From a virus, in IMG/VR virus record IMGVR_UViG_3300031673_000256, positions 1-34,626 of that record: a stretch of 34,626 bases of DNA. One strand, 5' to 3'. The first letter of the stretch is position 1. Each line of letters begins with the position of its first letter. The translations under genes were made by a program, and so were the position numbers. Of this stretch, positions 14,687 through 32,531 are shown piece by piece. Below the pieces are notes generated by a model that saw only the letters and a list, made by a program, of their open reading frames with translations, searched no databases and was not told the DNA's origin.

Positions 14687-15277
14687 CTACCTCCGGCAAT
14701 GACCGCATTCGCATTCCGGCGGCTCTCCCGCATCCACCGCCGCCAGAATCCCCCGCGCCTTCTCCTCCAACTTCCGCCCCACCTCCGCGTTCCGCACCAC
14801 CTCGCACACCCATAATTCCCCTGACTCGCGTTCCTTATACACCACCAGCGCCCGCTCGTACCCCCCCCAGTGCATATACGCCTGGACCTGGTCGTAGTGC
14901 CTCAACTTTGCCCCCATGTCGCGGACATTCTCCAGTCCGTCCGCATTCACCGACTTCACCTCGAGCAGCACACCGCCCACCACCCCATCGATGTGCCCCT
15001 GCACCCGGCCGCCGAACGCCACCAACTCCTTCCCCACCTCCTCCACCTCGATCCCCATCTGCTCCAACCGCGCCCGCACGTCCCTCTCGTGCACGTACCC
15101 CTCGTGGCAATACAGCACCCCCTGCACCCCCGGCTGCCGGCGCCCCTCCACCAGGTCGAAAAACAACTTCCGAGGACACTGCCCGATCATACTCATCCCC
15201 AGATACTGCCGGCCGTCGTCCCAATCGTTCGCCACGGCCTCCAATAACATCTTCTTCAACTCCAGCGCATCCATCAC
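14687..15277 (-). CDS. PD-(D/E)XK exonuclease, Cas4/RecB-like, with Cys cluster
   Basis: A 196-residue nuclease-fold protein. IGQCPRKLFFDL near residue 32 and HERDVRARLE near 62 are followed by VQGHIDGVV and LLEVKSVN (the D...ExK active site, about residues 96-110) and HYDQVQAYMHW (the QxxxY motif, about 130). One Cys sits in GQCPR and three in the C-terminal ECECGHC, an arrangement like the Fe-S cluster ligands of Cas4/AddB-type nucleases. It probably processes DNA ends in phage recombination or replication. No cas1/cas2 or CRISPR array is nearby, so a CRISPR role is not supported. It overlaps the upstream gene by 4 bp. Confidence 0.85.
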   Translation of the reverse strand: MMDALELKKMLLEAVANDWDDGRQYLGMSMIGQCPRKLFFDLVEGRRQPGVQGVLYCHEGYVHERDVRARLEQMGIEVEEVGKELVAFGGRVQGHIDGVVGGVLLEVKSVNADGLENVRDMGAKLRHYDQVQAYMHWGGYERALVVYKERESGELWVCEVVRNAEVGRKLEEKARGILAAVDAGEPPECECGHCRR

Positions 15278-15612
15278 TCCTCCTTGCTACTGGCCGTCGG
15301 CTCACGCCCGACGACCTCCCGATAAGCCTGCAGCGCATCCTCATAATCAGCATCGCGCTGCTCAATCACCGCCGGCATCGCCCGCCACCGCCGTGCTATA
15401 CATGCCTCACTATGCGTGATCCCAATCCAGTTCCGCAGCGCCCGCTCGACGACCTCCTCCAACCTGGCCTCCTCCATCCGAGGCCCCACCGCCACACTCG
15501 GCGCCTGCACCACCAGCGCCCGCCGGCCCGTCACCACCTCCGCCGCCAGCCGCAAATCCTCGACCGTCACCCCCCGCGCCATCTCCGCCATCGCCCCACA
15601 AAACTCGTCCAT
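15274..15612 (-). CDS. Hypothetical helical protein before the nuclease
   Basis: I do not recognise this 112-residue, mostly helical protein (EDLRLAAEVVTGRRALVV, EEARLEEVVERALRNWIGI, DADYEDALQAYREVVG). Start ATG 15612 follows GAGGAGGA; ATG 15615 is also possible. Its ATGA overlap with the nuclease gene suggests a partner such as a recombination co-factor. The leader contains one copy of the 20-bp repeat (15662-15676) and lies after the structured element at 15683-15827. Confidence 0.6.
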   Translation of the reverse strand: MDEFCGAMAEMARGVTVEDLRLAAEVVTGRRALVVQAPSVAVGPRMEEARLEEVVERALRNWIGITHSEACIARRWRAMPAVIEQRDADYEDALQAYREVVGREPTASSKEE

Positions 15613-15661
15613 CATTCCTCCTCTATGATCCTGATCCATTCCCATCCTATCCGTTACTTTC

Positions 15662-15676
15662 CCAATCCGTTGTTGT
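15662..15676 (-). repeat. Leader repeat, single copy (site 1 of 8)
   Basis: Contains the core CCAATCCGTTGTTGT (plus strand), preceded by TCCGTTACTTT. The orientation is the same as all other copies. It sits about 50 bp upstream of the start of the gene at 15612, the only site outside the structural module. Confidence 0.85.
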
Positions 15677-15682
15677 AATCCA

Positions 15683-15827
15683 CGGTGACCGGGTGGAGGT
15701 CCTGCAACCTCCGGAGGCCTTCAGTAGTGGCCACAGCCCCAGGCTCCTATCGTCTCCGGATCGTGAGCCACCACCTCGCAATCCTGCGCCACACTTAGCC
15801 GCTGCTCCGCAGCCACCCCGGTCACCG
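15683..15827. ncRNA. Candidate structured RNA or attachment region closed by a 14-bp stem
   Basis: CGGTGACCGGGTGG (15683-15696) pairs with CCACCCCGGTCACCG (15813-15827) with a single bulged base. Inside, read on the minus strand, are CTGC-GGA-GCAG, CGCA-GGAT-TGCG, a GGCTC/GAGCC helix and GGAGGT-TGCAGG-ACCTCC. This would be a multibranched fold about 145 nt long. It lies between the tyrosine recombinase stop (15854) and the next gene. It could be a non-coding RNA, a recombinase arm/core site or an elaborate terminator; strand cannot be fixed because stems are symmetric. I recognise no known RNA family. Confidence 0.4.
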
Positions 15828-15853
15828 CTCTTCCTCATTCCCCATCTACCCAT

Positions 15854-16930
15854 CTACTCGATCCCGATCAGCGCCTCCACCTGCGCCCACAGCACGTCCT
15901 TCCTCTTCTCCGTATGCTGAATGTAAATCTGCGTCGTCGCCAACGTCGAATGATTCAGAAACCTCTGCAACTCCTGCAAATCGTCCGTCAACTCGCGCCG
16001 CAACATCGCCGCCGTGTGCCGCAGCGTGTGCGTGTGGATCCGCTCCCACTTCAACCCCGCCCGCCTGGCGCACTTCTTCACGATCCTATTGATGAACGAC
16101 GCCGACAACGGCTCATCCCCCCGCACCGTCACCCCCAACCGCTCCACCACGTCGCTCAGCGCCACGAACACATAATCCCCTTCCCCCATCCCCTCCAACC
16201 GCCCCGCCGCCCTCAAATACCCCACCATCGCATTGTACGCCGGCAGCGGCAACTCATCCTCCCGCGACGTCCCACCCTTCCCCCACCACCTGTAATACAC
16301 CCGCCCCCCTTCCTCGCGGATGTCCCCCCACCGCAGCCGCCGCACCTCCGACGACCTCCGCCCCGTGTACAAATACGTCACGATCAGCGCCAGATCCCTC
16401 AGCCCCTCCACCGTATCCTGCGGAATAGACCTGAGCAGCGCCCGCACCTCATCCACACTCAAATAAATGCTTCGCTCATAAGGAGAAATCTTCGCGCGCT
16501 CCACCCGCATCACCGGATTCCGCTCCGCCAGCGGCACCTCCCGGCCCGACACCCCATCCACCACCGTGAACCGGTTGCAGCAAAACGCATAAAACGACGA
16601 CAACGCCGCCAACCGCAGATTTACCGTCGCCTCCGCCAGCCCCGCCTCCCTCATCCCCTGCTGCCAGCGCAACACCTGCACCCCTCCCACCTCCCACGGC
16701 TCCACCCCGCACCCCGCGAAAAACCCCTGCACCGCCCCCTCGTACGCCCGCCGCGTATGCTGGCTTCGCGCCGCCCTCACCTCCAACCACGCCACCGCCG
16801 CCTGCCCCCACCACTCCCGCAGCCGCTCCTCCCGCCCCTGGCCACCCTCCGGCCCCAGCCCCCGGCTCCCACTCCATCCCGGCCCCACCACCGCCGGCAA
16901 CCCCACTCCCACCATCCCCTGCATCGTCAT
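15854..16930 (-). CDS. Tyrosine recombinase (XerC/D-like integrase)
   Basis: A 358-residue recombinase. After a Gly-rich N-terminus comes a SAM-like core-binding domain (about 38-115, QHTRRAYEGAVQGFF...ATVNLRLAALSSFYAF), then the catalytic domain with all expected residues: R192 in TGRRSSE, K218 in WWGKGG, H301 and R304 in HTLRH, H327 in LNHSTL and Y336 in QIYIQH. It could integrate the phage or resolve dimers of a plasmid form. GGGAGG lies seven bases before ATG 16930. A second recombinase of a different class is at 20200-21684, so which one integrates is open. A 10-bp hairpin lies in the leader at 16967-16995. Confidence 0.93.
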   Translation of the reverse strand: MTMQGMVGVGLPAVVGPGWSGSRGLGPEGGQGREERLREWWGQAAVAWLEVRAARSQHTRRAYEGAVQGFFAGCGVEPWEVGGVQVLRWQQGMREAGLAEATVNLRLAALSSFYAFCCNRFTVVDGVSGREVPLAERNPVMRVERAKISPYERSIYLSVDEVRALLRSIPQDTVEGLRDLALIVTYLYTGRRSSEVRRLRWGDIREEGGRVYYRWWGKGGTSREDELPLPAYNAMVGYLRAAGRLEGMGEGDYVFVALSDVVERLGVTVRGDEPLSASFINRIVKKCARRAGLKWERIHTHTLRHTAAMLRRELTDDLQELQRFLNHSTLATTQIYIQHTEKRKDVLWAQVEALIGIE

Positions 16931-16966
16931 CTCACACCTCCCTCATCCATTTTGACGTTCCCCGCC

Positions 16967-16995
16967 GGGCTGGATCCCCCCCCCCGATCCAGCCC
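16967..16995. other. Perfect 10-bp hairpin with homopolymer loop upstream of the tyrosine recombinase
   Basis: GGGCTGGATC (16967-16976) and GATCCAGCCC (16986-16995) flank a loop of nine C (nine G on the minus strand). No T-tract follows on the minus strand. It lies 37 bp before the recombinase start, between stop and start codons, and may be a regulator or recombinase site, or a weak terminator. Confidence 0.55.
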
Positions 16996-17020
16996 CGCAA
17001 GCAACCTCAAAACCCGTGCC

Positions 17021-17119
17021 CTACCCCCTCCACCACATCACCAGCACGATCAGCCCCACCACCTCCAACCCCAGCATCACCCAATCCGCCCTGCTCCACC
17101 GGTTCGGCTTTCCCGCCAC
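17021..17119 (-). CDS. Possible 32-residue single-TM peptide
   Basis: A GTG-initiated frame (start right after GGAGGTGGAGG) ends at TAG 17023-17021. It encodes a basic N-terminus followed by WVMLGLEVVGLIVLVMWWRG, a clear transmembrane segment. A competing frame in the same DNA, ATG 17159 to 17007 (50 residues, Gly-rich, GGGAGG five bases upstream), has the better ribosome-binding site but low-complexity sequence. Only one is probably real; the membrane peptide looks more protein-like. Confidence 0.4.
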   Translation of the reverse strand: MAGKPNRWSRADWVMLGLEVVGLIVLVMWWRG

Positions 17120-17161
17120 CCTCCACCTCCAGGTGCGCGTCGGACCACCCCGCCGCCATCC

Positions 17162-17503
17162 CTACCTCCCCCTCACCACCCGCAGTGCCGTCCGCAGGCA
17201 TCCCCACCAATCCCCGCACTCCCGCGCCTCCCCCACCGCCTCCCGCACCACCGCCACCGCCTCCTGCCACATCCCCAACCCCACCTCCTGCCCGTCCCCT
17301 CCACCCACCTTCCCATCGCGTATTTCTATATCCGTGGTTCTCCTCCCCATCCTCCCCAGCGCCTCCTCCACGTGCGCCCCCCGGATCTCCGCCGCCCCTA
17401 CCACCACCTCATCCAGCGTCGCCCACAAATCATCCCACGACACCGTCTCCAGCCCTCGCCGCGCCGCCCACAACAACTTCTGCGCCGATCCTGTCCTCTC
17501 CAT
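17162..17503 (-). CDS. Hypothetical helical protein
   Basis: A 113-residue protein, not recognised. It is mostly helical, with SAQKLLWAARRGLETVSWDDLWATLDEVVVGAAE and WQEAVAVVREAVGEARE, and ends in a basic tail. Tight spacing to the next frames places it in the early leftward operon of small unknown genes. No metal or membrane motif is seen. Confidence 0.6.
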   Translation of the reverse strand: MERTGSAQKLLWAARRGLETVSWDDLWATLDEVVVGAAEIRGAHVEEALGRMGRRTTDIEIRDGKVGGGDGQEVGLGMWQEAVAVVREAVGEARECGDWWGCLRTALRVVRGR

Positions 17504-17508
17504 TTTCC

Positions 17509-17703
17509 CTACCCCCTGCGATTTCTCCGCCGCGACAACTTCGCCGTCTTCCGTGCCTTGCCCACCTTCCCCTTCGCGCCCCTCGCCGGCTGCCGTCCCC
17601 GCTCGTGCTTCGAGGCCCCCTTCAGCTCCGCCAGCGCCGCTCGTATCGGCACCTCCGCCAGCGTCCTCAACAACTTATCCTTCCACTCCACCCCTATCTC
17701 CAT
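17509..17703 (-). CDS. Small very basic protein
   Basis: A 64-residue protein with a short amphipathic N-terminus (WKDKLLRTLAEVPIRAALAELKG) and a strongly basic C-terminal half rich in Lys/Arg (KHERGRQPARGAKGKVGKARK and on). This suggests nucleic-acid binding. GGGAGGTAGGG precedes ATG 17703 and the stop of the previous gene lies two bases before. Upstream in-frame sequence is shadow of the neighbour. Function unknown. Confidence 0.6.
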   Translation of the reverse strand: MEIGVEWKDKLLRTLAEVPIRAALAELKGASKHERGRQPARGAKGKVGKARKTAKLSRRRNRRG

Positions 17704-17705
17704 CC

Positions 17706-17942
17706 CTACCTCCCATCCCCCATCGCCTGCACGATCTGCGCCATCGCCCGTGTCATCGCCGCCCGCGCCTCCTCCAGACACCGCGCATACACCGGCACCC
17801 GCGCCCCGTTCCCGTCCACCGTCAAAATCCCGATCAACTGCAACCCCTCCCACATCCCCGGGAACCCCTCCACGAACCCATCCACCACCGCCCCCGCCGG
17901 GCGTACCGCCACCACTGCCTGCTCACAGTCCCCCATCGGCAT
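17706..17942 (-). CDS. Hypothetical protein
   Basis: A 78-residue protein with GMWEGLQLIGILTVDGNGARVPVYARC in the middle and a C-terminal helix (LEEARAAMTRAMAQIVQAM). Not recognised. It overlaps the upstream gene by 20 bp and is followed after two bases by the basic protein, so these form one coupled set of early genes. Confidence 0.55.
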   Translation of the reverse strand: MPMGDCEQAVVAVRPAGAVVDGFVEGFPGMWEGLQLIGILTVDGNGARVPVYARCLEEARAAMTRAMAQIVQAMGDGR

Positions 17943-18826: not shown

Positions 18827-18872
18827 CTCCCACCTTCCTAATCCGTAAATCCTGCCCATCCGTGTTCCAAAC

Positions 18873-20134: not shown

Positions 20135-20197
20135 TTACGGATTACGCATTACGGATTACGGATTACGGATTACGGATTACGGATTACGGATTACGCA
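20135..20197 (+). repeat. GGATTAC heptad tandem array
   Basis: About nine copies of the 7-bp unit TTACGGA (two variants TTACGCA) run up to the start codon of the serine recombinase. The unit is a simple intergenic repeat type seen in several bacterial phyla. It supplies only a weak ribosome-binding sequence for the gene that follows. Confidence 0.9.
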
Positions 20198-20199
20198 TC

Positions 20200-21684
20200 A
20201 TGACCCGCCTCGCCATCTTCGCCTCCGTCTCCACCCCCGCCCAGGCTGCCGTCGAAAAAGACTCCCTCCCCTCCCAACTCCGCGACGGCCAAGCCTTCGC
20301 CGCCTCCATCGGCGCCACCGTCGTCGCCACCTATCAGGTCCCCGGCCATAGCCGAAAATACATCTTCTACACCGACGCCGAGACCGACATCCCCGCCTAC
20401 CACCAACTCCGCGCCGATTGCGACGCCCACATCTTCGACGTCCTCTGGTGCCGTGCTCGCGATCGCCTCGGGCGCACCGACGCCCTCATCGCCCAGGTCG
20501 AAGCCCTCGTCGCCGCCGCCAGCGCCCAAACCTACTCCTCCCTCATGCCCCACGACCTGGCCCACACCTCCGAAACCTCCAGCCTCTACCTCTCCGCCGT
20601 CGAGCGCGCCCAGGCCCAGGTCGAAAACATCCAACGCACCCGCCGCCGCGACGTCGGCATCCGCGCTCGCGTCCGCCGCGGCCTCCCCCACTGCCGCTGG
20701 CCCTACGGCTACCGCCCCGTCAAAGACCCCCACGGCCACACCATCGCCGGCGAATTCGTCCCCGGCGAAATCGAAGCCGTCCAACTCGCCACCGACCTCT
20801 TCCTCGCCGGCCTCGGCATCCACACCATCGCCCGGCGCCTCAACGCCACCCCCTACCACCCCCGCCGCTCCCCCCGCTGGGCCATGACATCTGTCCGCAA
20901 CATCCTCTACAACGACCGCTACGCCGGCCTCATCACCTACGGTCCCCACCTGGTCGCCACCGACCCCTCTCCCGCCTACCCCGCCGCCTGGGACCCCGCC
21001 ACCCATCGCGCCATCCTCCAGGAACGCGCCCGCCGTCGCCGAGGTGGCCACCCGCGCGTCTCCCCCATCTCCGGCCTCGTCTTCTGTGCTCGTTGTGGCT
21101 ACGCCCTCGAGCTCAACCGCCCCCACGCCGTCTACAACTACCGCTGCTACACCCACGCCAACCGGCGCGCCCTCGGCCGCTCCTGCCACACCAACACCAT
21201 CCGCGCCGATGTCCTCCTCGACGCCATCCAACAGACCCTTTCCACCCTGCGAGATCCCGCCGCCCTCGACGCCCTCCTCACCGCTGCCGCCCCCAACCGC
21301 GCCCCCTTCGAAGCCCAGCGCGCCCACCTGGTCGCCGCGATCGCCGCCCTAAAACAAAAACGCGAACGCCTCGCCCTGGCGTTCGCTGACCAAACTATGA
21401 CCGCCGACGTCTACCGCGACGCCGACGACCACCTCCTGGAGGACCTCCAGGCCGCCACCCGGCAACTAACCGACGTCGGCGACCAACTCGCCGTCCAGCC
21501 CACCCCCGAGGACCACCGCGCCGCCCTCGAGGACCTCCTAGCCACCCTGGCCACCGACCCGGGCTGGCTCCGCACCGGCCCCGTGGACCAGGTCCGCGCC
21601 GCCCTCCTACGCACCGGCCTCCGCCTCTACGTAGAAAACGGCCACCTCGTCCGCATCACCATCACCCCCGGAGCAGGAGTGTGA
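20200..21684 (+). CDS. Large serine recombinase (site-specific integrase)
   Basis: A 494-residue recombinase with the large-serine layout: catalytic N-domain (about 1-140), recombinase domain (about 155-260, PHCRWPYGYRPV...IARRLNATPYHPRRSPRW...NILYNDRYAGLITYG), zinc ribbon (CARCG...YRC...SCH, about 297-330) and a coiled-coil-containing C-terminus. Ser11 in ASVSTPAQ is the expected nucleophile, and DRLGR supplies the R68/R71 equivalents of gamma-delta resolvase. The R8 equivalent reads Ser9, and the RP motif around R45 reads IP. It adjoins the repressor, as integrases of temperate phages do. The plus-strand coding DNA is C-rich, unlike the G-rich minus-strand genes. Confidence 0.9.
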   Translation: MTRLAIFASVSTPAQAAVEKDSLPSQLRDGQAFAASIGATVVATYQVPGHSRKYIFYTDAETDIPAYHQLRADCDAHIFDVLWCRARDRLGRTDALIAQVEALVAAASAQTYSSLMPHDLAHTSETSSLYLSAVERAQAQVENIQRTRRRDVGIRARVRRGLPHCRWPYGYRPVKDPHGHTIAGEFVPGEIEAVQLATDLFLAGLGIHTIARRLNATPYHPRRSPRWAMTSVRNILYNDRYAGLITYGPHLVATDPSPAYPAAWDPATHRAILQERARRRRGGHPRVSPISGLVFCARCGYALELNRPHAVYNYRCYTHANRRALGRSCHTNTIRADVLLDAIQQTLSTLRDPAALDALLTAAAPNRAPFEAQRAHLVAAIAALKQKRERLALAFADQTMTADVYRDADDHLLEDLQAATRQLTDVGDQLAVQPTPEDHRAALEDLLATLATDPGWLRTGPVDQVRAALLRTGLRLYVENGHLVRITITPGAGV

Positions 21685-22072: not shown

Positions 22073-23583
22073 CTCGCCTCCAACATCTGCTCTACTCGTT
22101 GCATCCGCTGATACACATCACGAAACGCACACGCATAAAATTGCAGGAATGCCCTATGCTTGATAAACGCATGCGTTCGGCCCACCTCATCCACGCTCAC
22201 CGTCACCAATCCCGCCCTCTCGAAATCCGCCAGATTATACCGAATAACCTCATCCCACCGGCCCCGTATCATCCGCGATAGATCCGCCGCCAGCACCAGG
22301 TCGTCGTACTCGTCCCAATCATCCCCCACCCCGATAATCGCATCGGAATGCAACTCCCCTTCCTGATCAAAAATGAACCGCGTCGAGGCGCTCGAGCGGA
22401 TAACCATCAAATTCGCATCTGCCCCCGGCGCCGCCAGCCCCGTTCCGCTTTTCGTATGCGCATAGATTTCAACATGGCCACGTCCCGCGGCGCTTTTCGT
22501 GGTATCATCCGCCGTGGCGCACCCTGTCAGAGCCGCCGCCGCAGTCGCCTCAGAGAATCCCCGGATATTAATCCCTCCCGACCCCACGGCACCATATTGG
22601 ATTGCCAGCACATCGCCAAATGTATCTGTCTCCGTATAATTGGTAATTCCGTGGGCTACCTCCGCAGCCTTGAATGCGGCCGCCTCGTTCGTGGCCGCCC
22701 CCTGGTTGACCGTAACGCCGATGCTCATGCCGGCGTTAGAAGTCTCATTGATGTACAGCACCCCGGCCACCAGCGCCACCCCATCCGCACCCGGCACACT
22801 CGCACCCGCCCCAACCGCCAGCCGTTTCACCTTCACGCCACTATTCGCATCCGTGGCCACAATGCAACTGGCCGTTTGACCTGTGCTGTTCGTGACTGCG
22901 TGCGTGTGGTTTCCCGCCGCACTATTCGTACTCGTCGCCGTGCACGTCCCCGGCGTCGTCAGCGCCACGTCGTCCGCATTCACCGTGATCCCGGCCCCCG
23001 CCCCCACCGTCAGCGTCCGGTTCGCCGTCAAATCCCCGCCCCCGGTGAGCCCGGCCCCCGCCGTGATCGTGATCGCCGACCTGGCCAACGTACTGTCAAT
23101 CGCATGCGTGTGGTTTCCCGCCGCGCTATTCGTGCTCGTCGCCGTGCACGTCCCCGGCGTCGTCAGCGCCACGTCGTCCGCATTCACCGTAATCCCGTTC
23201 CCCGCCCCAACTGTTAGCGTCAGATTTGCTGTCAGGTTTCCACCACCAGTCAAACCAGCGCCAGCCGTGATCGTGATCGCCGATCTCGCCAGCGTGCTGC
23301 CAATCGCGTGCGTGTGGTTTCCCGCCGCGCTATTCGTACTCGTTGCCGTGCACGTCCCCGGCGTCGCCAACGCCACCGTCACCGCCAGGCCCGCCCCCCC
23401 GTCCGTCACCGTGATCGAATTCCCCGCCGTCAGCACCCGCTCCGCCGTCAGATCCGCATGCAGCGCCAGCACCACGTACTGCGCGTCATTCGGCGCCGGC
23501 CCCACCCCACTCGCCGCCGTGATCCACGTCCGTAACTTCGCCACGTCCGTCAGCAGATCGTCAACCCCCAGCCTATCCTCCAT
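22069..23583 (-). CDS. Tail fibre / receptor-binding protein with HxH repeats
   Basis: A 504-residue protein. The N-terminal ~60 residues are helical (attachment). Then come three related ~68-residue repeats with TPGTCTATSTNSAAGNHTHA, LARSAITITAGAGLTGGG and LTVGAGxGITVNADDV; each has one GNHTHA. In T4 gp37-type fibres HxH motifs coordinate metal ions along a trimeric needle. A globular part follows and a helical C-terminus (MIRGRWDEVIRYNLADFERAG...DVYQRMQRVEQMLEAR). ATG 23583 follows AGGAGGGGGG supplied by the end of a leader-repeat copy. DNA repeats have a 204-bp period (22901, 23105, 23309). Confidence 0.82.
   Translation of the reverse strand: MEDRLGVDDLLTDVAKLRTWITAASGVGPAPNDAQYVVLALHADLTAERVLTAGNSITVTDGGAGLAVTVALATPGTCTATSTNSAAGNHTHAIGSTLARSAITITAGAGLTGGGNLTANLTLTVGAGNGITVNADDVALTTPGTCTATSTNSAAGNHTHAIDSTLARSAITITAGAGLTGGGDLTANRTLTVGAGAGITVNADDVALTTPGTCTATSTNSAAGNHTHAVTNSTGQTASCIVATDANSGVKVKRLAVGAGASVPGADGVALVAGVLYINETSNAGMSIGVTVNQGAATNEAAAFKAAEVAHGITNYTETDTFGDVLAIQYGAVGSGGINIRGFSEATAAAALTGCATADDTTKSAAGRGHVEIYAHTKSGTGLAAPGADANLMVIRSSASTRFIFDQEGELHSDAIIGVGDDWDEYDDLVLAADLSRMIRGRWDEVIRYNLADFERAGLVTVSVDEVGRTHAFIKHRAFLQFYACAFRDVYQRMQRVEQMLEAR
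22880..23370 (-). repeat. 204-bp in-frame tandem repeats inside the fibre gene
   Basis: The motif TGCGTGTGGTTTCCCGCCGC (plus strand) begins at 22901, 23105 and 23309, giving a 204-bp (68-codon) period. The second and third units are close at DNA level; some stretches show many synonymous changes. The repeats can expand or contract in frame. Confidence 0.85.
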
Positions 23584-23606
23584 CCCCCCTCCTATCCGTT
23601 CCTTTC

Positions 23607-23621
23607 CCAATCCGTTGTTGT
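23607..23621 (-). repeat. Leader repeat, single copy (site 2 of 8)
   Basis: Core CCAATCCGTTGTTGT. On the minus strand the repeat continues GGGAAAGGAACGGATAGGAGGGGGG and so provides the ribosome-binding site of the fibre gene. The stop codon of the upstream gene lies within its first bases. Confidence 0.85.
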
Positions 23622-24745: not shown

Positions 24746-26145
24746 TCCGACCCCCGCAGGTTATACCACTGGCAATAGTAAAGCCCACCGTTGCCATCGT
24801 TCAACGTAATCTGATCCGTCAGAACCGACGACGCCGGCCGTTGATACACCACAATCATCCGTCCATCCCCGGGTGGCAACCCAAAATTGCAAAACGACTT
24901 CGGTGCACCTACGTGATAATAGGACGTGTACGCTACCACCCTGCCTACCCTGCCAATCGGCGACTCTGCCACCGCCCATACATTCCCGGCGATCACCTCC
25001 ACCTCGTCCGACAGAAACCCCTCGTCCACCGGCACCGGGCATACACAATCCAGATCCAAACTACCTGCCCCATCCGTCCGCCGTCCCCAGATCTGCAATG
25101 TGTACCCGGCCTCGTATGCCGCCGCATGCACCGCCAGCGGCAATACCTGCAGATCCCGCAGCGGAATCGGCGCGATCCCCATCTCATAATAGTTCCAACT
25201 CGTACCCACCTCGACCTTTGGCCCGGCCACAAAATCCGCATCCGCCATTCCCTGATATCCCCACCGCACCTGCACCTCCCACGTCCCCGTCGTCGCCGCA
25301 CAGCGCAACAACCATAGAAACATCCCAAATTGATCACTCCTATTTGCCGTATAATCCGCCAAATCAACCGTCAACCTCTTCGCCCACGTCGCCGTCCCCG
25401 GTGTTACCCGCACCTTCGTGTTGCCGCCCCCGCCCGGGCTGGCCGTCGAATCCGTTGTTCTACCCGCATCCGTCCCCAGCGTCCCATCCGTATCCTCGCA
25501 TTCCCATATATTGACAAAATTCGTCACCGTCCCGTGCTTGTTCGCCGACCTGACCCCCACCCAGATCTTCCCGATCGCACCGCTCGGTACAGTGAAACCA
25601 AAATGCGCGATCCTGGCCGCCCGGTCCCCCACCACGTCCGCCCCCGGGCTGGCCGTATAATCGTAAAACACACTCGCTGCCGCCGTCGGCGTTGCCGCCG
25701 GCATCGCCACCGTCGCCGTCCCCTCCCACACCCCTTCCCGCTCCACCTTCAGCCGCACCCGTGCATCGTTGACGCCCGCCTCATTCGCCATGTCTACCTG
25801 CGCGCTCAGCCACTCCATCGCGATCTCCCGCACCAACGCGCGGCGCTCCCCCGTCTCATTGTTCATCTTCACGTGCAGCCACACGGGATACTGCTCCTGC
25901 CGGTCGGCCATATACCGCGCCGCCCCCTCCCTCACATCGTCCATCGCCTGCATACTCGTCCCCAGGTCGTTGTGCGACCCCCGGTCCACCAGGCAATCAA
26001 TCGCCTCCGTCACCGGCAGCGGCCGCCGCCCGTGCACCGGCACCCCCACCTTCGCATTCCACGTCCCCGCCCGCCACCCACTCCCCGCCCCCGCCAACAG
26101 CGACAAATCCGTCGTATCCCGCCTAAACTTAAACACCACCGCCAT
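24742..26145 (-). CDS. Distal tail (Dit-like) / baseplate protein with beta-sandwich insert
   Basis: A 467-residue protein in the position of Dit, just after the tape measure. The N-terminus (MAVVFKFRRDTTDLSLLAGAGSGWRAGTWNAKVGVP) fits a tail-tip hub. Residues about 155-330 look like a jelly-roll carbohydrate-binding-type domain (IAHFGFTVPSGAIGKIWVGVRS...VRVTPGTATWAKRLTVDLADYTANRSDQFGMFLWLL). A further beta-rich part follows. Such added lectin-like domains can help host binding. AGGAGGGGATAG precedes ATG 26145, again after a leader repeat. Confidence 0.72.
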   Translation of the reverse strand: MAVVFKFRRDTTDLSLLAGAGSGWRAGTWNAKVGVPVHGRRPLPVTEAIDCLVDRGSHNDLGTSMQAMDDVREGAARYMADRQEQYPVWLHVKMNNETGERRALVREIAMEWLSAQVDMANEAGVNDARVRLKVEREGVWEGTATVAMPAATPTAAASVFYDYTASPGADVVGDRAARIAHFGFTVPSGAIGKIWVGVRSANKHGTVTNFVNIWECEDTDGTLGTDAGRTTDSTASPGGGGNTKVRVTPGTATWAKRLTVDLADYTANRSDQFGMFLWLLRCAATTGTWEVQVRWGYQGMADADFVAGPKVEVGTSWNYYEMGIAPIPLRDLQVLPLAVHAAAYEAGYTLQIWGRRTDGAGSLDLDCVCPVPVDEGFLSDEVEVIAGNVWAVAESPIGRVGRVVAYTSYYHVGAPKSFCNFGLPPGDGRMIVVYQRPASSVLTDQITLNDGNGGLYYCQWYNLRGSE

Positions 26146-26175
26146 CTATCCCCTCCTATCCTTTCCGTTCCTTTC

Positions 26176-26190
26176 CCAATCCGTTGTTGT
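26176..26190 (-). repeat. Leader repeat, single copy (site 3 of 8)
   Basis: Core CCAATCCGTTGTTGT followed on the minus strand by GGGAAAGGAACGGAAAGGATAGGAGG, which forms the ribosome-binding site of the gene at 26145. Confidence 0.85.
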
Positions 26191-26198: not shown

Positions 26199-28250
26199 TC
26201 AAAAACTCCCCACCAACTCCACAATCGCCTCATAATTCCACTGCCCCGCCGCATCCCGATACTGCCCCGCATCCTCGATCATAATCGGCGCCACCACCAC
26301 CATCCTCCCCCCTCCCCCTCCCCCCCCCCATCCCCCCATCCCCCCGCCCAGCTCACCCATCCCCGCCTGTGCCCCCGCCACTGCAGCAGCCAACGCCTCC
26401 AGCGGCAACCCTACCGATGCTTTGACCCCCTCCGCCCAGCCCCGCATCATATTCTCGCCCAGCCCCCTCATCAACAGCGACGGCGACCCAATCCCAAAAA
26501 AGCCCTTGATAACTTCCCACGCTGCTGACGCCGCCGCCCGGCACGCCTCGATCAGCCACGACAACGCAGCATTGATCCCATCAATGATCCCCTGGATGAT
26601 TCCCCGCCCCAGTGCCCCCCAATCTGTACTCGTGAACTTATTGACAATCGCAGAGATCAGATTGGCCACTATCCCGCTCAGCGTATCCCAAGCCCTGCGC
26701 AAAATCTCGGCGATCCCATTCCACACCGCATCCCACGCCACTCGCAAATTCTCTCCAAATCCGCGCCAGTCCCCCTCGAACGCTGATGCAAATGCAGCAA
26801 TGATCCCGCTGATCACCGCGCTCACCGTTTCGATTCCCGCCTGAATCACACCCCATGCCCCCTGGGTTATCGCCGTGATCGTCGCCCCGTGCTTATCCCA
26901 GAATCCCTGCCACACGGCAAGCCCGCCCTGAATCACCCCCGCAATCCCCGCCACCACCCCCTCGATGAACGTCCGTATCCCCCCCCAATCATTCACCCAC
27001 GCCAGATACAACGCCGCCAGCGCCGCGATCACCAGCACCAACGGCGCCTCGATCGCCAGAATCACCGCCGCCACCACCCCCCCGATGATCGCGAAAATCT
27101 CCCAATTATCCACCACGAACTGCAACGCATCCGCCAGCAGCGGCAGCGCACTCGACGCCAGTATGAGGAGCTGCTCCCCCCACAACTGCAGCGTCGGCAA
27201 AAACTCCACTATCGCCGGCCAAATCACCTCACTAATCACCCTCCCCACCGGCTCCAGCCCCGCCAGGAATGCATCTACATTCGCCACCACTTCCGGCGGC
27301 ACCAGCGCCCCGATCCCCCCCTCCCCGATCCGCTCGATGAACCCCAGCACCCGCTCCACGAACCCACCCAACTGCTCCCCGATCTCCGCAATCTTCCCAC
27401 TCTCCAGCATCCCCCGCAGCGTATCGAACACCCCACCCAGCGCCCCCGTCACCACCTCCAGCGCCGGCGTCAACAGATCCGCCCCCCCAAAATACATCAG
27501 ATCCTTGAACGATGATTGCAGCCCCTGGAACGTCTTGCTCATCCGCTCCGACGCCCCCCCAAAGTTCACGTCCGCGTACCGCACGAACGCCCCCGACACG
27601 TCCGCCATCGTCAGCGCCCCGTCCTTCAGCCCCTCCCGCACATCCTCGATGCTCATCCCCAACTCATCCTGGAACACATCCCCCAGGTCCAACCCCACCA
27701 TCTTCAGCTGCCGCATATTGGCCGCCGTCAGATCCCCCGCCTGCAGCGCCTGAGCCAGGTTGTATGTCATCCGGCCCATGCTCTCGTTTGTCATCCCCAA
27801 CCCTGCCCCAGTATCCAGGACCGCCTTCGTCAAATCAATCGCACTATCCCCCGTCGCCCCGAATGCCATCTGCAATCGAAAGGCATCCGCTACCTGCTCA
27901 AACTCGAATGGCGATACCAACGCCAGATCCTTCAGCCTGCCCAACAACCCCTCCGCGACAGGCCCCACCTTCCCCAACGCATCCTCGATATTCTCCGCCC
28001 CTCCCGCCGCCACCAACTCCCGCGCCGCCAGCGTCTCCAGCGAGAGCGTCAAATTCTGCAGCCCCGTCGCCCCCCCGAACGCCTCCCGCGCAATATCCCC
28101 GATCCCCCGCCCGATCGCCGCCAGCCCGCTGGCCACCAGCCCCCCCAGCGCAAACTCCGCGATCCGCCCCAGCGCCCCATGCACCCCATTCAGCGCCCCG
28201 CTCGCATTGTCCCGCCCCTCCACGATGATATTGATTCGATAATCGGACAT
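26199..28250 (-). CDS. Tape measure protein
   Basis: A 683-residue tape measure protein, the ruler for tail length and part of DNA ejection. The N-terminal ~250 residues match the TP901-type tape measure pattern (VSPFEFEQVADAFRLQMAFG, DLTAANMRQLKMVGLDLGDVFQ, MSKTFQGLQSSFKDL). The middle is hydrophobic helical (WEIFAIIGGVVAAVILAIEAPL and on) and the C-terminus has GIGSPSLLMRGLGENMMRGW, usual for this class, then a Gly-rich stretch. If each residue spans about 1.5 angstrom, a tail near 100 nm is expected. ATG 28250 has only a weak ribosome-binding site; an in-frame upstream ORF with the same first six residues lies at 28331. Confidence 0.95.
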   Translation of the reverse strand: MSDYRINIIVEGRDNASGALNGVHGALGRIAEFALGGLVASGLAAIGRGIGDIAREAFGGATGLQNLTLSLETLAARELVAAGGAENIEDALGKVGPVAEGLLGRLKDLALVSPFEFEQVADAFRLQMAFGATGDSAIDLTKAVLDTGAGLGMTNESMGRMTYNLAQALQAGDLTAANMRQLKMVGLDLGDVFQDELGMSIEDVREGLKDGALTMADVSGAFVRYADVNFGGASERMSKTFQGLQSSFKDLMYFGGADLLTPALEVVTGALGGVFDTLRGMLESGKIAEIGEQLGGFVERVLGFIERIGEGGIGALVPPEVVANVDAFLAGLEPVGRVISEVIWPAIVEFLPTLQLWGEQLLILASSALPLLADALQFVVDNWEIFAIIGGVVAAVILAIEAPLVLVIAALAALYLAWVNDWGGIRTFIEGVVAGIAGVIQGGLAVWQGFWDKHGATITAITQGAWGVIQAGIETVSAVISGIIAAFASAFEGDWRGFGENLRVAWDAVWNGIAEILRRAWDTLSGIVANLISAIVNKFTSTDWGALGRGIIQGIIDGINAALSWLIEACRAAASAAWEVIKGFFGIGSPSLLMRGLGENMMRGWAEGVKASVGLPLEALAAAVAGAQAGMGELGGGMGGWGGGGGGGRMVVVAPIMIEDAGQYRDAAGQWNYEAIVELVGSF

Positions 28251-28259
28251 AATCCGTTC

Positions 28260-28331
28260 CTATCCGTTCCGATCTGCGTTCATCTGCGTTCGTCTGCGTT
28301 CATCTGCGTTCGTGATCCTGTAATCCGACAT
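28260..28331 (-). CDS. 23-codon upstream ORF duplicating the tape measure N-terminus
   Basis: ATG 28331 (GGTGAGG upstream) opens MSDYRITNADERRRTQ... and ends at TAG 28262-28260. The tape measure protein also begins MSDYRI, and the two frames are the same: after TAG come GAA CGG ATT and then ATG 28250. The insert between them is the AACGCAGATG repeat. It may mark the former start of the tape measure gene, interrupted by repeat growth; TAG suppression would give an N-terminal extension. Confidence 0.4.
   Translation of the reverse strand: MSDYRITNADERRRTQMNADRNG
28271..28311. repeat. TCTGCGTTC decamer array (first block)
   Basis: Four tandem copies of a ~10-bp unit (TCTGCGTTCA/G on plus). A second block is at 28459-28511 and related copies at 31436-31612. 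This is a simple intergenic repeat type, not CRISPR: no spacers. Confidence 0.85.
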
Positions 28332-28378: not shown

Positions 28379-28458
28379 CCGTGTATCCCCGTTCCTGGAA
28401 CCGTCGCCGCCTGCTCAGACGGCCGTCCTATCCGTTCCTACCCGTTCCTACCCGTTCC

Positions 28459-28511
28459 GATCTGCGTTCATCTGCGTTTATCTGCGTTCATCTGCGTTCG
28501 TCTGCATTCAT
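28459..28511. repeat. TCTGCGTTC decamer array (second block)
   Basis: Five tandem copies of TCTGCGTTCA-like units (last one TCTGCATTCA). They start just past the stop of the GT-C-like gene and overlap its last codons. Confidence 0.85.
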
Positions 28512-29323
28512 CGTCCGAGGATCCAAAGCGCACAAGGCAAAAACAACCTCGACTCCCGTCCCCTCCCCATCGTCCACCCCATCACCACCCACACCAGTCC
28601 CACCCACCTGGTCGCCCCCAACGCCCCCTCCAGCAGGTGGCCACCCGTCACCGCCGCCCACACCATCCCCACACACAACCCCAACGAAAAAAGCGGCCCA
28701 GGATCCATCCTCTCCCACGCCGCCTTCCAATCCCCCACGTTATACGCCCTCCACGTCCACCGCTCGCAATACAACACCGCCCTCCCCTGCACCAACCGTA
28801 CCACCCCCAGCGCCGCCGGCCCCGCCAGACCCGCCAGGCCCGCCGGCCACCCCCCGGCCAGCCCCGCCACCACCGGCGCCAGCCCCGCCGTCTCCCGGCT
28901 CAACCCCCACACCACCCCCCCCACCGCCGCCGCCCACGGCACCCCCATCAAACACAACCCCAGCCCCACCAGCTCCGCGTACTGATCCCAATAATCGAAC
29001 TCCAGCGTCCCCGCGATGATCACTGCCAGCCCCAGCATCCCCATCCGCCCGAGGTGCACCTCCGCCACCCCCAGCGCCCCGGCCAGCAGCCCCACCTTCG
29101 CCGCCTGGTATGCGACCGCCCGCCCCTTCCCTGCCGGCAGCCATCCCACCACCCACGGCACCAGCACCCGGTACCGCATCGGCGCCGGGCTCGACCTGGC
29201 CAGCACCCCCCCCATCGCCCCGTACCCATTGAACCGCGTCCCCACATTCCTGGCCACCACCCGCCACTCCAGCATCCCCACCACCACTGCCACCAATACC
29301 ACCCCCATTACGCGCGTAATCAC
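28508..29323 (-). CDS. Multi-pass GT-C-like membrane protein (glycosyltransferase candidate)
   Basis: A 271-residue polytopic membrane protein with about seven or eight hydrophobic segments. The pattern resembles small GT-C-fold transferase-like proteins: MRYRVLVPWVVGWLP after the first TM, an acidic loop LEFDYWDQYAEL, WGLSRETAG, and GRESRLFLPCALW at the C-terminus. GT-C enzymes use lipid-phosphate sugars at the outer membrane face. It is out of place between the tail chaperones and the tape measure and has its own downstream terminator, so it behaves like a moron that alters the host surface. GTG 29323 follows AGGAGG; ATG 29308 is an alternative. Family call is tentative. Confidence 0.65.
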   Translation of the reverse strand: MITRVMGVVLVAVVVGMLEWRVVARNVGTRFNGYGAMGGVLARSSPAPMRYRVLVPWVVGWLPAGKGRAVAYQAAKVGLLAGALGVAEVHLGRMGMLGLAVIIAGTLEFDYWDQYAELVGLGLCLMGVPWAAAVGGVVWGLSRETAGLAPVVAGLAGGWPAGLAGLAGPAALGVVRLVQGRAVLYCERWTWRAYNVGDWKAAWERMDPGPLFSLGLCVGMVWAAVTGGHLLEGALGATRWVGLVWVVMGWTMGRGRESRLFLPCALWILGR

Positions 29324-29349
29324 CCCTCCCCCTCCTATCCGTTCCTTTC

Positions 29350-29364
29350 CCAATCCGTTGTTGT
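29350..29364 (-). repeat. Leader repeat, single copy (site 4 of 8)
   Basis: Core CCAATCCGTTGTTGT; on the minus strand it leads into GGATAGGAGGGGGAGGG before GTG 29323. It lies between the T chaperone stop and the GT-C-like gene. Confidence 0.85.
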
Positions 29365-29372
29365 AACCCGAA

Positions 29373-29600
29373 TCATCTCCTCCTCGACCGCGACCGCAAC
29401 CTCGCCAACTTCTCCTCCTGCTTCCGCACCCGCCCCTCGATACTCAAACATTCCAGGTGCGGCAACACGTCCGCCAGCGGCACCGTCCGCAGCACCACCG
29501 GCGTACAATGATACACGTCCCGGCACAAAATCAGCGTCAGATACTCGGCTGGAGGCCTCCCGCTCCCCGTCCACAGGTACGCCATCAGCCGAACCTTCAG
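29373..29600 (-). CDS. Tail assembly chaperone T domain, made by -1 frameshift from G
   Basis: After -1 slippage at GGGAAAC (29606-29600) translation continues CTG AAG GTT CGG CTG and then MAYLWTGSGRPPAEYL..., ending in a basic tail (KLARLRSRSRRR). The 75 added residues give a G-T fusion of about 158 residues. An internal ATG at 29585 exists but has no ribosome-binding site. The G/GT pair binds the tape measure and tail tube proteins during tail assembly in lambda-like phages. The position two genes before the tape measure fits. Confidence 0.75.
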   Translation of the reverse strand: MKVRLMAYLWTGSGRPPAEYLTLILCRDVYHCTPVVLRTVPLADVLPHLECLSIEGRVRKQEEKLARLRSRSRRR

Positions 29601-29848
29601 TTTCCCCCGGGATTCATCCCCTCGTTGATCGCCTGCATCAACTGCTGCCCGATCTGCCCCAGCGCCGTCATTGGAATCCCCTTCCCCCGCACCCCCCCCA
29701 CCACCACCCGGTCCAGCAGATCCATAAACGCCTTCATCGTCCCCGGCTCCGGCATCTTCCCCCCCGTCCCCGCCATCGCCACGATCGTCTCCAGATCGTC
29801 AATGTAGCAGCTCTCCAGATCGATCCGAATCGTCAACTCCTCCGCCAT
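29597..29848 (-). CDS. Tail assembly chaperone G
   Basis: An 83-residue protein (MAEELTIRIDLESCYIDDLETI...FMDLLDRVVVGGVRGKGIPM...QQLMQAINEGMNPGGN) located between tail tube and tape measure genes, the usual site for gpG-like chaperones. Its last two sense codons GGA AAC lie in the heptamer G GGA AAC followed by TGA, so a fraction of ribosomes can slip -1 and make the GT protein. GGAGG seven bases before ATG 29848 comes from the last leader-repeat copy. Confidence 0.8.
   Translation of the reverse strand: MAEELTIRIDLESCYIDDLETIVAMAGTGGKMPEPGTMKAFMDLLDRVVVGGVRGKGIPMTALGQIGQQLMQAINEGMNPGGN
29600..29606 (-). promoter_or_regulatory. -1 programmed frameshift site GGGAAAC
   Basis: G GGA AAC in the zero frame, followed at once by TGA. 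This matches X XXY YYZ and resembles the lambda G/T site GGGAAAG. The -1 frame is open into the T ORF. Confidence 0.8.
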
Positions 29849-29858
29849 CCCTCAGCCT

Positions 29859-29921
29859 CCAATCCGTTGTTGTCCCAATCCGTTGTTGTCCCAATCCGTT
29901 GTTTTCCCAATCCGTTGTTGT
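29859..29921 (-). repeat. Leader repeat, four copies at 16-bp period (site 5 of 8)
   Basis: Cores CCAATCCGTTGTTGT start at 29859, 29875, 29891 (variant ending GTTTT) and 29907. They fill the gap between the tail tube stop and the G chaperone ribosome-binding site. Confidence 0.92.
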
Positions 29922-29927
29922 CCCGGA

Positions 29928-30389
29928 TTACGTCACCGCACTCTGCGTGAACGCCGCCGTCTTCACCGAGAACGCCGCCATCACCGGATCACCCGGCCCT
30001 GCCTCCCCATCCGGCGGCAGAACCACCGTCGCCTTCGAGTCGCTCCCCGACGTGAACCTGAATTCCCCAGTAGTGTCCCCCGCCTTCGGCGACCACCGCA
30101 CCATCAGCATCCCCCCGCCCGCCGTAATGTGCTGATCCCACACCAACTTCCAGCCCCCCGTCGTCTCCTCCGTATACAGCAGCTTCACCTCACACTCCGT
30201 CGGATTCAGCTTCCCAAACTTGACCACCGCCGTGTCCCCGTCGAACGTGAACGCCTCTCCACTCTGCCGGTCGTACCCCGAGAACGAAACCCCCGACGCC
30301 CACCCGCTAATGTCCGTCCAGTCCGAGTTATTCGTCGAGATCTCCAACTTCGCCCCGACCGCCGCTAAACCACCTGTCGTCTGCGTCAT
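29928..30389 (-). CDS. Major tail tube protein
   Basis: A 153-residue beta-rich protein: LEISTNNSDWTDISGWASGVSFSGYDRQSGEAFTFDGDTAVVKFGKLNPTECEVKLLYTE, which is the pattern of siphophage tail tube proteins of the TP901-1/HK97 type. Hexameric rings stack around the tape measure to form the tail tube. It lies before the G/GT chaperones, as expected. ATG 30389 has AGGATTGGG upstream and follows a four-copy leader-repeat array, suggesting strong or regulated expression. Confidence 0.85.
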   Translation of the reverse strand: MTQTTGGLAAVGAKLEISTNNSDWTDISGWASGVSFSGYDRQSGEAFTFDGDTAVVKFGKLNPTECEVKLLYTEETTGGWKLVWDQHITAGGGMLMVRWSPKAGDTTGEFRFTSGSDSKATVVLPPDGEAGPGDPVMAAFSVKTAAFTQSAVT

Positions 30390-30407
30390 CCCAATCCTCC
30401 TGTTCTC

Positions 30408-30541
30408 TTTCCGTTACTTTCCCAATCCGTTGTTGTGTTCCGTTTCCGTTACTTTCCCAATCCGTTGTTGTGTTCCGTTTCCGTTACTTTCCCAATCCGT
30501 TGTTGTGTTCCGTTTCCGTTACTTTCCCAATCCGTTGTTGT
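30408..30541 (-). repeat. Leader repeat, four copies at 35-bp period (site 6 of 8)
   Basis: Cores CCAATCCGTTGTTGT start at 30422, 30457, 30492 and 30527, each with GTTCCGTTTCCGTTACTTTC between. The units are identical, so expansion is recent. The array covers the 3' end of the gene at 30484-30708 and the leader of the tail tube gene. Confidence 0.95.
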
Positions 30542-30708
30542 GCCCCCTCCTCCTCCACCTCCCGCATCCACCCCATCAGAATCGCATGCTTCACCCACTC
30601 CGCCCCCGCATCCGCCTCGAACACCGTCCCCTTCCTCGTCATCGCCCCTCCGCTGGGAGGTGACATATTCTCCAGCGCCTCATACCGCCGCATCCTCTTC
30701 TTGCTCAT
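30484..30708 (-). CDS. Small hypothetical protein with repeat-encoded C-terminus
   Basis: A 74-residue protein. The first ~53 residues (MSKKRMRRYEALENMSPPSGGAMTRKG...AEWVKHAILMGWMREVEEEG) look genuine; GGAGGAGGGCCGG precedes ATG 30708. The last ~20 residues (QQRIGKVTETEHNNGLGK) are translated from 35-bp leader-repeat units and stop in the second unit. The original stop was probably lost when the repeat expanded. It overlaps the glycosyltransferase gene by 29 bp. Function unknown. Confidence 0.6.
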   Translation of the reverse strand: MSKKRMRRYEALENMSPPSGGAMTRKGTVFEADAGAEWVKHAILMGWMREVEEEGAQQRIGKVTETEHNNGLGK

Positions 30709-31423
30709 CCGGCCCTCCTCCTGAAAAATCCGTGATCGCGTGCCACGCACAGAAATCCAGCGCCCCCATACTCCTCCGGTCTCCCACCACGTGCCCCGCC
30801 ACCACACTCAAATCCACGAACACCTCATACCCCGCCTCCTGCGCCCGCTCGCAAAAATATCGGTCCTCCCCGTTCGCCTTATCGTACGTCGCCCGGAACC
30901 ACGGCCGCTCCATCCTCTCCAGCACCCGCCGGTGCGTCAGCATACAATGAAACCCCGTAAAATCCACCACCCGCAGCGCCCCCTCCGGCCTCGGCTCCAC
31001 CATCGCCGCCCGGTGCGTTTGCAACTGCGCATGCTCCAGGATCCACTCGTGCACCCAGTCCGACCGCACCCACCTCTTATCCCCCTCCGCCTGCCCGCGG
31101 TACACCGTCGGCGTCACCGGCACCCCGATCGTGAAACACAGCGCCCCCACCACCGGCATTCCCCAGCTCAACAACCTCTTCAGCGTCCCCGGATGCACCT
31201 CCGCGTCCGCATCCAGCCACAGCACCCACTCACAATCCGCCAGCCCTGGCTCCCCCAGCACCCGCTCCACAATCCAATTCCGCGCCACGTCCACCGCCAC
31301 CGTCCGCGGATTATACAAATACTTATACCCAGGCGCCGGCGCCTCCAACATCCGCAAACTATCCACGTACAGCCACGTCGGCGGCCCACACCGCGGCGTC
31401 GCCACCACCACCCCTCCTCCCAT
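30680..31423 (-). CDS. GT-A-type glycosyltransferase
   Basis: A 247-residue GT-A-fold protein. VVVATPRCGPPTWLYVDSL begins the Rossmann-like part, WVLWLDADAEVHPGTLKRLL carries the DAD metal/nucleotide-sugar motif (about residues 73-92), and GEDRYFCERAQEAGYEVFVDLSVVAGHV is the usual ED...C..A...G...D acceptor-side segment. It likely glycosylates a virion tail or capsid protein or a host surface structure. It is inserted between the tail terminator and tail tube genes and flanked upstream by a TCTGCGTTC block, suggesting a moron. GGAGGGAGGATAGG precedes ATG 31423. Confidence 0.82.
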   Translation of the reverse strand: MGGGVVVATPRCGPPTWLYVDSLRMLEAPAPGYKYLYNPRTVAVDVARNWIVERVLGEPGLADCEWVLWLDADAEVHPGTLKRLLSWGMPVVGALCFTIGVPVTPTVYRGQAEGDKRWVRSDWVHEWILEHAQLQTHRAAMVEPRPEGALRVVDFTGFHCMLTHRRVLERMERPWFRATYDKANGEDRYFCERAQEAGYEVFVDLSVVAGHVVGDRRSMGALDFCAWHAITDFSGGGPDEQEEDAAV

Positions 31424-31626
31424 CCTATCCTCCCTCCGATCCGCGTTCATCCGCGCTCATCTCCCGGTGTACTCACCGGCTTCATCTGCGTTCCCGTCCC
31501 AATACACCTTGCCCCAATCTGATCCGCGTTCATCTGCGTTCCCATCCTAACCCATCTTCATCCAATCCGATCCGCGTTCATCTGCGTTTATCTGCGTTCA
31601 TCTGCGTTCCCGTCCCCATCCCTATC
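31424..31626. repeat. TCCGCGTTC/TCTGCGTTC repeat spacer
   Basis: The 203-bp gap holds scattered and tandem decamers (31436-31465, 31487-31499, 31519-31548, 31567-31612) and a 6-bp hairpin CCGGTG-TACT-CACCGG (31464-31479). Otherwise nothing gene-like is seen. Confidence 0.75.
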
Positions 31627-32049
31627 CTAATACACCTTCACTTCCACCGGCAACACCTCCATCCAATACGGATCCCCCCCCACCGCCGCCGGCACCACCT
31701 TACTCCTCCCCGCGAACCCGATCCACTGCCAATTCCCCGTCTTCCGGTTCGCCTCAATCACCTGGTAGAGCTTCTGCGCCACCTGGTCCAGCGCATCCTC
31801 CGCCACCTCCTCCCCCTCCCGCGCCACGAACGATAAGACCTCATAAAAATACGTCGCCTTCGACCCCTGGAACGTCAGCGCCTCCCCCTCCACCCCCGCA
31901 CTCCCCACCACCACAATCGGGCTCTGCCCGTCGAACGTCCCCTTCATATAATCGTACACCGCCTGCACCGGCAACCCCGTCCCCACCAACCCCGCATTCA
32001 ACAGCACCCCCAGCGCCTCCCGCACCTCCTGCCGCGTCTTAATCGCCAC
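31627..32049 (-). CDS. Tail terminator protein
   Basis: A 140-residue protein with the layout of siphophage tail terminators: N-terminal helix (TRQEVREALGVLLNAGL), a beta strand IVVVGSAG, YFYEVLSFVAREGEEVAEDALDQVAQKLYQVIEANR and a C-terminal strand WMEVLPVEVKVY. The hexamer caps the tail tube before joining to the head. Placed between the HK97 gp10-like gene and the tail tube gene, as in HK97/SPP1-type phages. A leader repeat lies upstream. Confidence 0.8.
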   Translation of the reverse strand: MAIKTRQEVREALGVLLNAGLVGTGLPVQAVYDYMKGTFDGQSPIVVVGSAGVEGEALTFQGSKATYFYEVLSFVAREGEEVAEDALDQVAQKLYQVIEANRKTGNWQWIGFAGRSKVVPAAVGGDPYWMEVLPVEVKVY

Positions 32050-32079
32050 TGTGATCCCTCTTTCCTTTCCGTTCCTTTC

Positions 32080-32094
32080 CCAATCCGTTGTAGT
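32080..32094 (-). repeat. Leader repeat, single copy (site 7 of 8)
   Basis: Core CCAATCCGTTGTAGT (one change from the common form), in the leader of the tail terminator gene. Confidence 0.8.
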
Positions 32095-32100
32095 ACTCTG

Positions 32101-32490
32101 TCACAACCCCCTCACCAACTCCCTCATCGCCCCCTCCGCGATCTCCCGTCCCCGCTCCTCCACCACCCGCTCATAAAATGCGTGACTCCCCCCCCGCGCG
32201 TGCTCCTCCACCCCATACACCGCCGGCCGCTCCCCCGTCCGTGGATTCACACTCGCCGGATCAATGAACACCCGCGCCCGCAGCCCCTCCACCGCAACCC
32301 GGTGCGACGCCCGCAGCGCGCCGGTGTCCACGTGCGTAATCGCCACCGCATACCGGTGCGCCGCCGTCCCCGCATACACCACCGCCCGCCCAAACGCCCC
32401 CTCCGGCCGCAGCGCCGCGATCGCCCTCAAATTCGCCTGCTGCGCCTCCTGAATCCCCGTAATCGTCAAACTCGCATCAAACCCCGCCAC
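32101..32490 (-). CDS. HK97 gp10-like head-tail joining protein
   Basis: A 129-residue protein with VDTGALRASHRVAVEG, the hallmark of the HK97 gp10 family, followed by a beta part (ARVFIDP), YGVEEHARGG and a C-terminal helix (YERVVEERGREIAEGAMRELVRGL). It joins head and tail or acts as stopper/neck protein. GTG 32490 follows AGGAGGGGAGGC. The upstream frame (GKERIRRGG) is translated leader repeat. Confidence 0.82.
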   Translation of the reverse strand: MAGFDASLTITGIQEAQQANLRAIAALRPEGAFGRAVVYAGTAAHRYAVAITHVDTGALRASHRVAVEGLRARVFIDPASVNPRTGERPAVYGVEEHARGGSHAFYERVVEERGREIAEGAMRELVRGL

Positions 32491-32516
32491 GCCTCCCCTC
32501 CTAATCCGTTCCTTTC

Positions 32517-32531
32517 CCAATCCGTTGTAGT
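32517..32531 (-). repeat. Leader repeat, single copy (site 8 of 8)
   Basis: Core CCAATCCGTTGTAGT, the same variant as site 7, in the leader of the HK97 gp10-like gene and followed by GGGAAAGGAACGGATTAGGAGG on the minus strand. Confidence 0.8.

Follow-up and report, generated by a model that had tools for sequence, protein, structure and literature searches.

The stretch of DNA analysed here, a virus record of 34.6 kb that is called the window throughout, raises the question why one short sequence recurs in front of so many of its genes, and whether its placement reflects a function or the neutral spread of a host-derived repeat, the two options that an earlier note on this DNA had set against each other. 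The virus is probably a temperate tailed phage. The minus strand has a G content of 46% and carries nearly all of the predicted genes, and support was obtained for a portal protein, a large terminase, a tape measure and both a tyrosine and a serine integrase; an HTH protein, ParA, ParB and a Cas4-like exonuclease are encoded as well. Among 249 sampled genomes of the class to which an Anaerolineae MAG (G007) belongs, two encode proteins with 51-55% identity to the large terminase, versus 28-34% identity to cultured phages among the best matches listed. This difference points to Anaerolineae (Chloroflexota) bacteria as the hosts.

Some further properties of the window may be mentioned here. The plus-strand GC skew runs from about -0.26 to -0.56 along the whole window (1-34626), an extreme strand asymmetry. 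The tyrosine integrase gene is found at 15854-16930, in a phage that also possesses a serine recombinase and ParA/B. A perfect 13-nt array (3.9 units of TACCCCACCGTTG, 9434-9484) adjoins the ParA and ParB genes and is perhaps a centromere (parS-like) or a set of origin iterons. A 7-nt array (TTACGGA, 8.7 units, 20135-20195) lies just upstream of the plus-strand serine recombinase gene (20200-21684), and a 204-nt repeat (2.3 units, 22901-23376) lies within the fibre-like ORF; 69-nt repeats also occur at 34100-34626.

When up to two mismatches were allowed, ACAACAACGGATTGGGAAAG was recovered twelve times in the window, and thirteen times with up to three, on the minus strand only; the chance expectation obtained from dinucleotide shuffles was 0. 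As a truncated unit forms the end of the 16-nt array at 29859-29924, the original count of 14 copies, spread over eight minus-strand sites, holds, and the fourfold tandem copies described for two of the sites were recovered too (35 nt x4.1 at 30401-30542 and 16 nt x4.1 at 29859-29924). The sites themselves are real, but the positions first given for them were about 5 nt off (e.g. 15657-15676). All eight lie directly upstream of a leftward gene. The conserved leader unit comprises 28 nt (ACWACAACGGATTnnGAAAnnAACGGAT) and extends to ...GAAAGGAACGGAT; as a rule a Shine-Dalgarno sequence (SD) comes next, and the start codon is located 8-19 nt downstream. The sites are:

32504..32531, minus strand: 28-nt leader repeat, upstream of the GTG at 32490 (uncharacterised late gene)
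32067..32094, minus strand: 28-nt leader repeat, upstream of the GTG at 32049
30401..30542, minus strand: array of 35 nt x4.1 with a 28-nt repeat in each unit, upstream of the ATG at 30389 (tail tube according to the earlier note)
29859..29924, minus strand: array of 16 nt x4.1 (ACAACAACGGATTGGG), upstream of the ATG at 29848
29337..29364, minus strand: 28-nt leader repeat running into AGGAGG, upstream of the GTG at 29323 (GT-C according to the earlier note)
26163..26190, minus strand: 28-nt leader repeat, upstream of the ATG at 26145
23594..23621, minus strand: 28-nt leader repeat running into AGGAGG, upstream of the ATG at 23583 (fibre-like protein)
15649..15676, minus strand: 28-nt leader repeat, upstream of the ATG at 15612; the ortholog leader in contig G406 keeps the motif

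The ORF that starts from 30708 runs through the first unit of the 35-nt array and terminates within the second (30484-30542), so that the repeat encodes its C-terminus. Some of the gene assignments need correction: several names, among them Dit, GT-C and terminator, received no family support in PHROGs, and the gene at 15612 is a small, non-structural one that adjoins the gene for the Cas4-like exonuclease. A search for viral proteins related to the tail protein encoded from 30389 gave none.

A second host-type repeat occupies the same kind of position elsewhere in the window:

28251..28313, minus strand: second repeat (GAACGCAGAT units) plus the half-motif GGAACGGATAGGAACGGATT, upstream of the tape-measure ATG at 28250
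28424..28512, minus strand: more GAACGCAGAT and a GGAACGGGTA array, in the intergenic gap shared with the preceding feature
31424..31609, minus strand: GAACGCAGAT-type arrays, upstream of the ATG at 31423

The half-motif that had been noticed in front of the tape measure is indeed present and directly adjoins its start codon. Within phages the GAACGCAGAT repeat keeps a single direction (0/11 for the window, 17/0 for G406); host copies are rare and occur in both directions. Ten late genes are preceded by a gap of at least 30 nt, and nine of them carry a repeat (seven the 28-mer and two the GAACGCAGAT repeat), versus none of the seven late-region genes that overlap or nearly abut the preceding gene. 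The difference is significant (Fisher p=0.0004) for gene starts that were picked by hand and two repeat families that were pooled after the data had been seen. G406 possesses yet another leader-like repeat, CCACGGATnGGGAAATACACGAT (L083-L085; e.g. 22649, 34450 and 35381), with a layout like that of the 28-mer.

When viral contigs were searched for the 20-mer and for two less strict patterns, eleven more contigs with the motif came up; G402, an apparent copy of G407, was left out of this count. Over the twelve contigs there are 39 copies, which within each contig all point in the same direction (0 opposed). The start codon is mostly found 8-19 nt past the 28-mer, and the SD takes one of two forms: AGGAGG or GGGAGG immediately past the motif, or the internal AAAGGA, in which case the motif-final AT begins the ATG. 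In further contigs GAAT-type variants were found, one of them a tandem array ending in AAAGGAG plus ATG. For four copies in G002 the arrangement is less regular, as those at 10903, 3505 and 3173 are not closely followed by a clear long gene and that at 13293 is ambiguous. Motif differences amount to 2.3 and 3.3 within a phage versus 3.9 between phages. No protein similarity to the window was seen for G001 and G002 in an ORF-level blastp of partial stretches, and a tblastn of chosen window proteins against the full G002 contig gave three matches, for part of the tape measure, an integrase and a replication protein (29-40% identity), so that G002 is better regarded as very remote than as entirely unrelated. 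In G001 (L009) and G002 (L049) a stem-loop, GGTGACA...TGTCRCC with a variable loop, lies directly upstream of several copies. One other match (L127) was set aside, having no adjacent SD and coming from a pattern that was estimated to give 1-2 chance matches in the collection. Cultured phages yielded weak partial matches to the motif (E at least 1), and in TerL-related prophages of other Anaerolineae neither the motif nor another repeated leader was observed.

The repeat is also present in bacterial genomes. The exact 20-mer (ACWAC form) has eight matches in 84,980 genomes, of which six are in Chloroflexota MAGs; two exact matches in Bacillaceae (L011 and L018) were set aside as their flanks resemble homologous coding sequence. 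The 28-mer, with up to three mismatches, was recovered from 21 of 396 genomes of the Anaerolineae class, and a reversed control pattern from 0. Host copies occur in both orientations (11/18 in G005, 7/10 in G187 and 6/4 in another genome), and for 71 of the 122 non-redundant copies an inverted partner follows no more than 150 nt downstream, separated in most cases by a loop of 12-30 nt. Gene starts within 60 nt of the host copies number 13 in the sense and 19 in the antisense direction, and gene ends 21 and 13, thus no bias towards gene starts, on the basis of a crude gene calling in which 33 of 110 copies fell within called ORFs. Given the inverted partners and the lack of a start bias, the host 28-mer is a dispersed palindromic repeat, often forming one arm of a hairpin. 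It resembles REP/BIME and MITE-type palindromes in being dispersed, mainly intergenic and arranged in inverted pairs with a short loop, but differs from REPs with a RAYT: the motif flanks none of ten Y1 (Y1_Tnp) transposase loci in four host genomes, and a RAYT/REP origin was rejected.

Phage copies differ from this host form in two respects. None of 32 has an inverted partner (versus the 71 of 122 in hosts), and a strict SD is found within 12 nt for 13 of the 32, versus 2 of the 122 host copies; the phages therefore carry a single arm, in one direction and joined to an SD. What the earlier note had named as evidence against a function, host copies in both orientations and unrelated to start codons, is indeed seen in Anaerolineae, but the viral copies are one-directional and mostly at starts. 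The host-type repeat, the 39/0 direction in viral contigs and the conserved ortholog leader (see below) together argue for a host origin and for a placement of the viral copies that looks selected, so that function and neutral host spread, which had been put forward as alternatives, each hold in part.

The ortholog leader is that of the 15612 gene, the product of which is 64% identical to its relative in G406. Within the two leaders the motif forms an island in which 25 of 28 positions are alike, with the differences at the variable positions 14, 20 and 21, and the flanks are poorly alignable; among about ten orthologous leaders compared with G406 this is the one in which the motif is kept. 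The related contigs L076, L077 and L082 have the motif in front of one and the same gene, and L082 contains a second version, inserted into the older, ancestral copy, which indicates that copies turn over by recombination. In the copies of phages and in those of hosts, the conserved blocks are ACWACAACGGATT, GAA and AACGGAT, and the variable positions are 14-15 and 20-21; the per-position information content of the two sets is correlated (Spearman 0.48, p=0.01).

The leaders with the motif contain 37% A versus 20% for motif-free leaders, have a mean MFE of -10.0 versus -19.9 kcal/mol (p=9e-5) and are more often unpaired from SD to start (0.59 versus 0.41), in a comparison with a motif-free set that is unmatched because it includes many coupled genes. 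Relative to dinucleotide-shuffled leaders the structure z is about 0, which means that composition accounts for the low structure, and a role as ribosome-binding site alone consequently leaves the retention of the exact blocks unexplained. Such retention may reflect recent copying or a specific binder, and sequence alone cannot separate the two. Pairing with 16S rRNA beyond the SD-like AAAGGA was discarded, as the ungapped match was no better than that of shuffled motifs; an apparent 16S match in a G005 locus proved to lie outside the 16S gene. A sigma-70 promoter was rejected likewise, as none of the promoter-like sites (-35/-10 hexamers) coincides with a motif copy. No phage RNA polymerase or sigma factor was found among the window proteins searched, no Rfam family matched the window at gathering score, and none of the papers in the library searched contains the repeat sequences.

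The closest known parallel is the SAS of Cluster K mycobacteriophages, an asymmetric short repeat of which a genome holds 11-19 copies, nearly all of them pointing the same way (PMC3203893, PMC12699233). It is located a few nt upstream of start codons, contains the SD core GGATAGGAG and favours genes with larger gaps, and a function in translation is suspected (PMC3203893, PMC12699233). The 28-mer likewise is one-directional, near start codons and inclusive of an SD, and it too favours larger gaps (9/10 versus 0/7, both repeat families counted). On the other hand, the SAS consensus GGGATAGGAGCCC has 0 matches in the window at up to two mismatches, SAS measures 13 nt rather than 28, it belongs to the non-structural half of the genome whereas the 28-mer mainly precedes structural late genes, and it is nearly absent from the host whereas the 28-mer is an abundant repeat in some Anaerolineae genomes. 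Moreover, unlike SAS, the 28-mer forms tandem arrays and is common to phages whose proteins show little or no detectable similarity. Judged by these features the repeat resembles SAS but is not a member of it, its apparent host origin being the new feature. The inverted repeat of G001 and G002 is reminiscent of ESAS in its variable spacer and its position directly upstream of several copies, but ESAS is an imperfect 17-bp inverted repeat, and the stem found here is unrelated, shorter than 17 bp and not consistently present in the window. The stoperators of Cluster A phages are asymmetric 13-bp repressor sites that lie in short intergenic gaps and in one direction relative to transcription. They act in transcription regulation (PMC3203893). 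The repeat shares their asymmetry, direction and location in short intergenic gaps, but nothing ties it to a repressor, and it adjoins the SD and the start.

How the repeat came to its present position can be explained in several ways. A sequence-specific site for a phage or host protein or small RNA, acting either as a promoter or operator in the DNA or at the level of the mRNA, that would bring the late genes under joint control is in our view unlikely. It would agree with the retention of the same blocks and the variability of the same positions in phages and hosts, with the blocks kept in the orthologous G406 leader and with the stem-loop directly upstream of several G001/G002 copies; yet host copies are not placed at gene starts, a different repeat family takes the same slot at the tape measure and the 31423 gene, the 16S rRNA match does not exceed that of shuffled motifs, and neither a sigma-70-like site at the copies nor a phage polymerase or sigma factor among the proteins searched came to light. 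Unlikely, too, is a neutral or selfish spread by recombination, in which the direction would result only from purine-biased coding strands and short gaps. The near-fixed distance of 8-19 nt to the start with the SD attached, the 39/0 orientation, the fact that all phage copies have lost the second arm and the conserved island in the orthologous leader are not predicted by such spread, although the host-type origin, the greater likeness of copies within than between phages, the tandem slippage arrays and the G-rich minus strand, with a second purine-rich repeat in the same direction, are all in line with it. One could also imagine that the repeats are recombination joints for module exchange among Anaerolineae phages, gene starts being harmless exchange points. 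Their occurrence at gene boundaries in contigs that have little or no protein similarity that could be detected and the second version inside the ancestral copy of L082 would fit, but exchange of this kind requires neither a single direction with an SD attached nor tandem arrays upstream of single genes, and we regard it as very improbable.

The explanation that we favour, and consider somewhat probable, is that the repeat is a portable start-associated leader, for which one arm of a palindromic intergenic repeat of Anaerolineae was the source; we infer from the features of the leaders that a translational role would fit best. Through the arm each uncoupled gene would acquire a tract that is rich in A, has little structure and includes an SD (the internal AAAGGA or a terminal AGGAGG), at which ribosomes could load independently on an otherwise very G-rich mRNA, the leaders being assumed to be transcribed inside polycistronic mRNA. 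Copies would move between leaders through recombination, and the extra tandem units ahead of 30389 and 29848 may increase output. Against this explanation speak the low structure that composition accounts for, the irregular copies in G002, the orthologous leaders that do not share the motif and its absence from the TerL-related prophages. A more far-reaching version, in which phages repeatedly domesticated the host arm as a common leader code read by a host factor, is rather improbable; if true, a single host protein or RNA would set late phage translation, and the hairpin copies in the host would compete for that factor.

Taken as a portable leader of this kind, the repeat would be a case of a dispersed bacterial repeat that is used as a directional gene-start element across barely similar phages, in a phylum, that of the Anaerolineae, about whose phages and gene signals very little is known. 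It would offer a second, independent system for the unsolved question of SAS, with an origin that can be traced, and as a sequence tag it may help to link viral contigs with Anaerolineae hosts.
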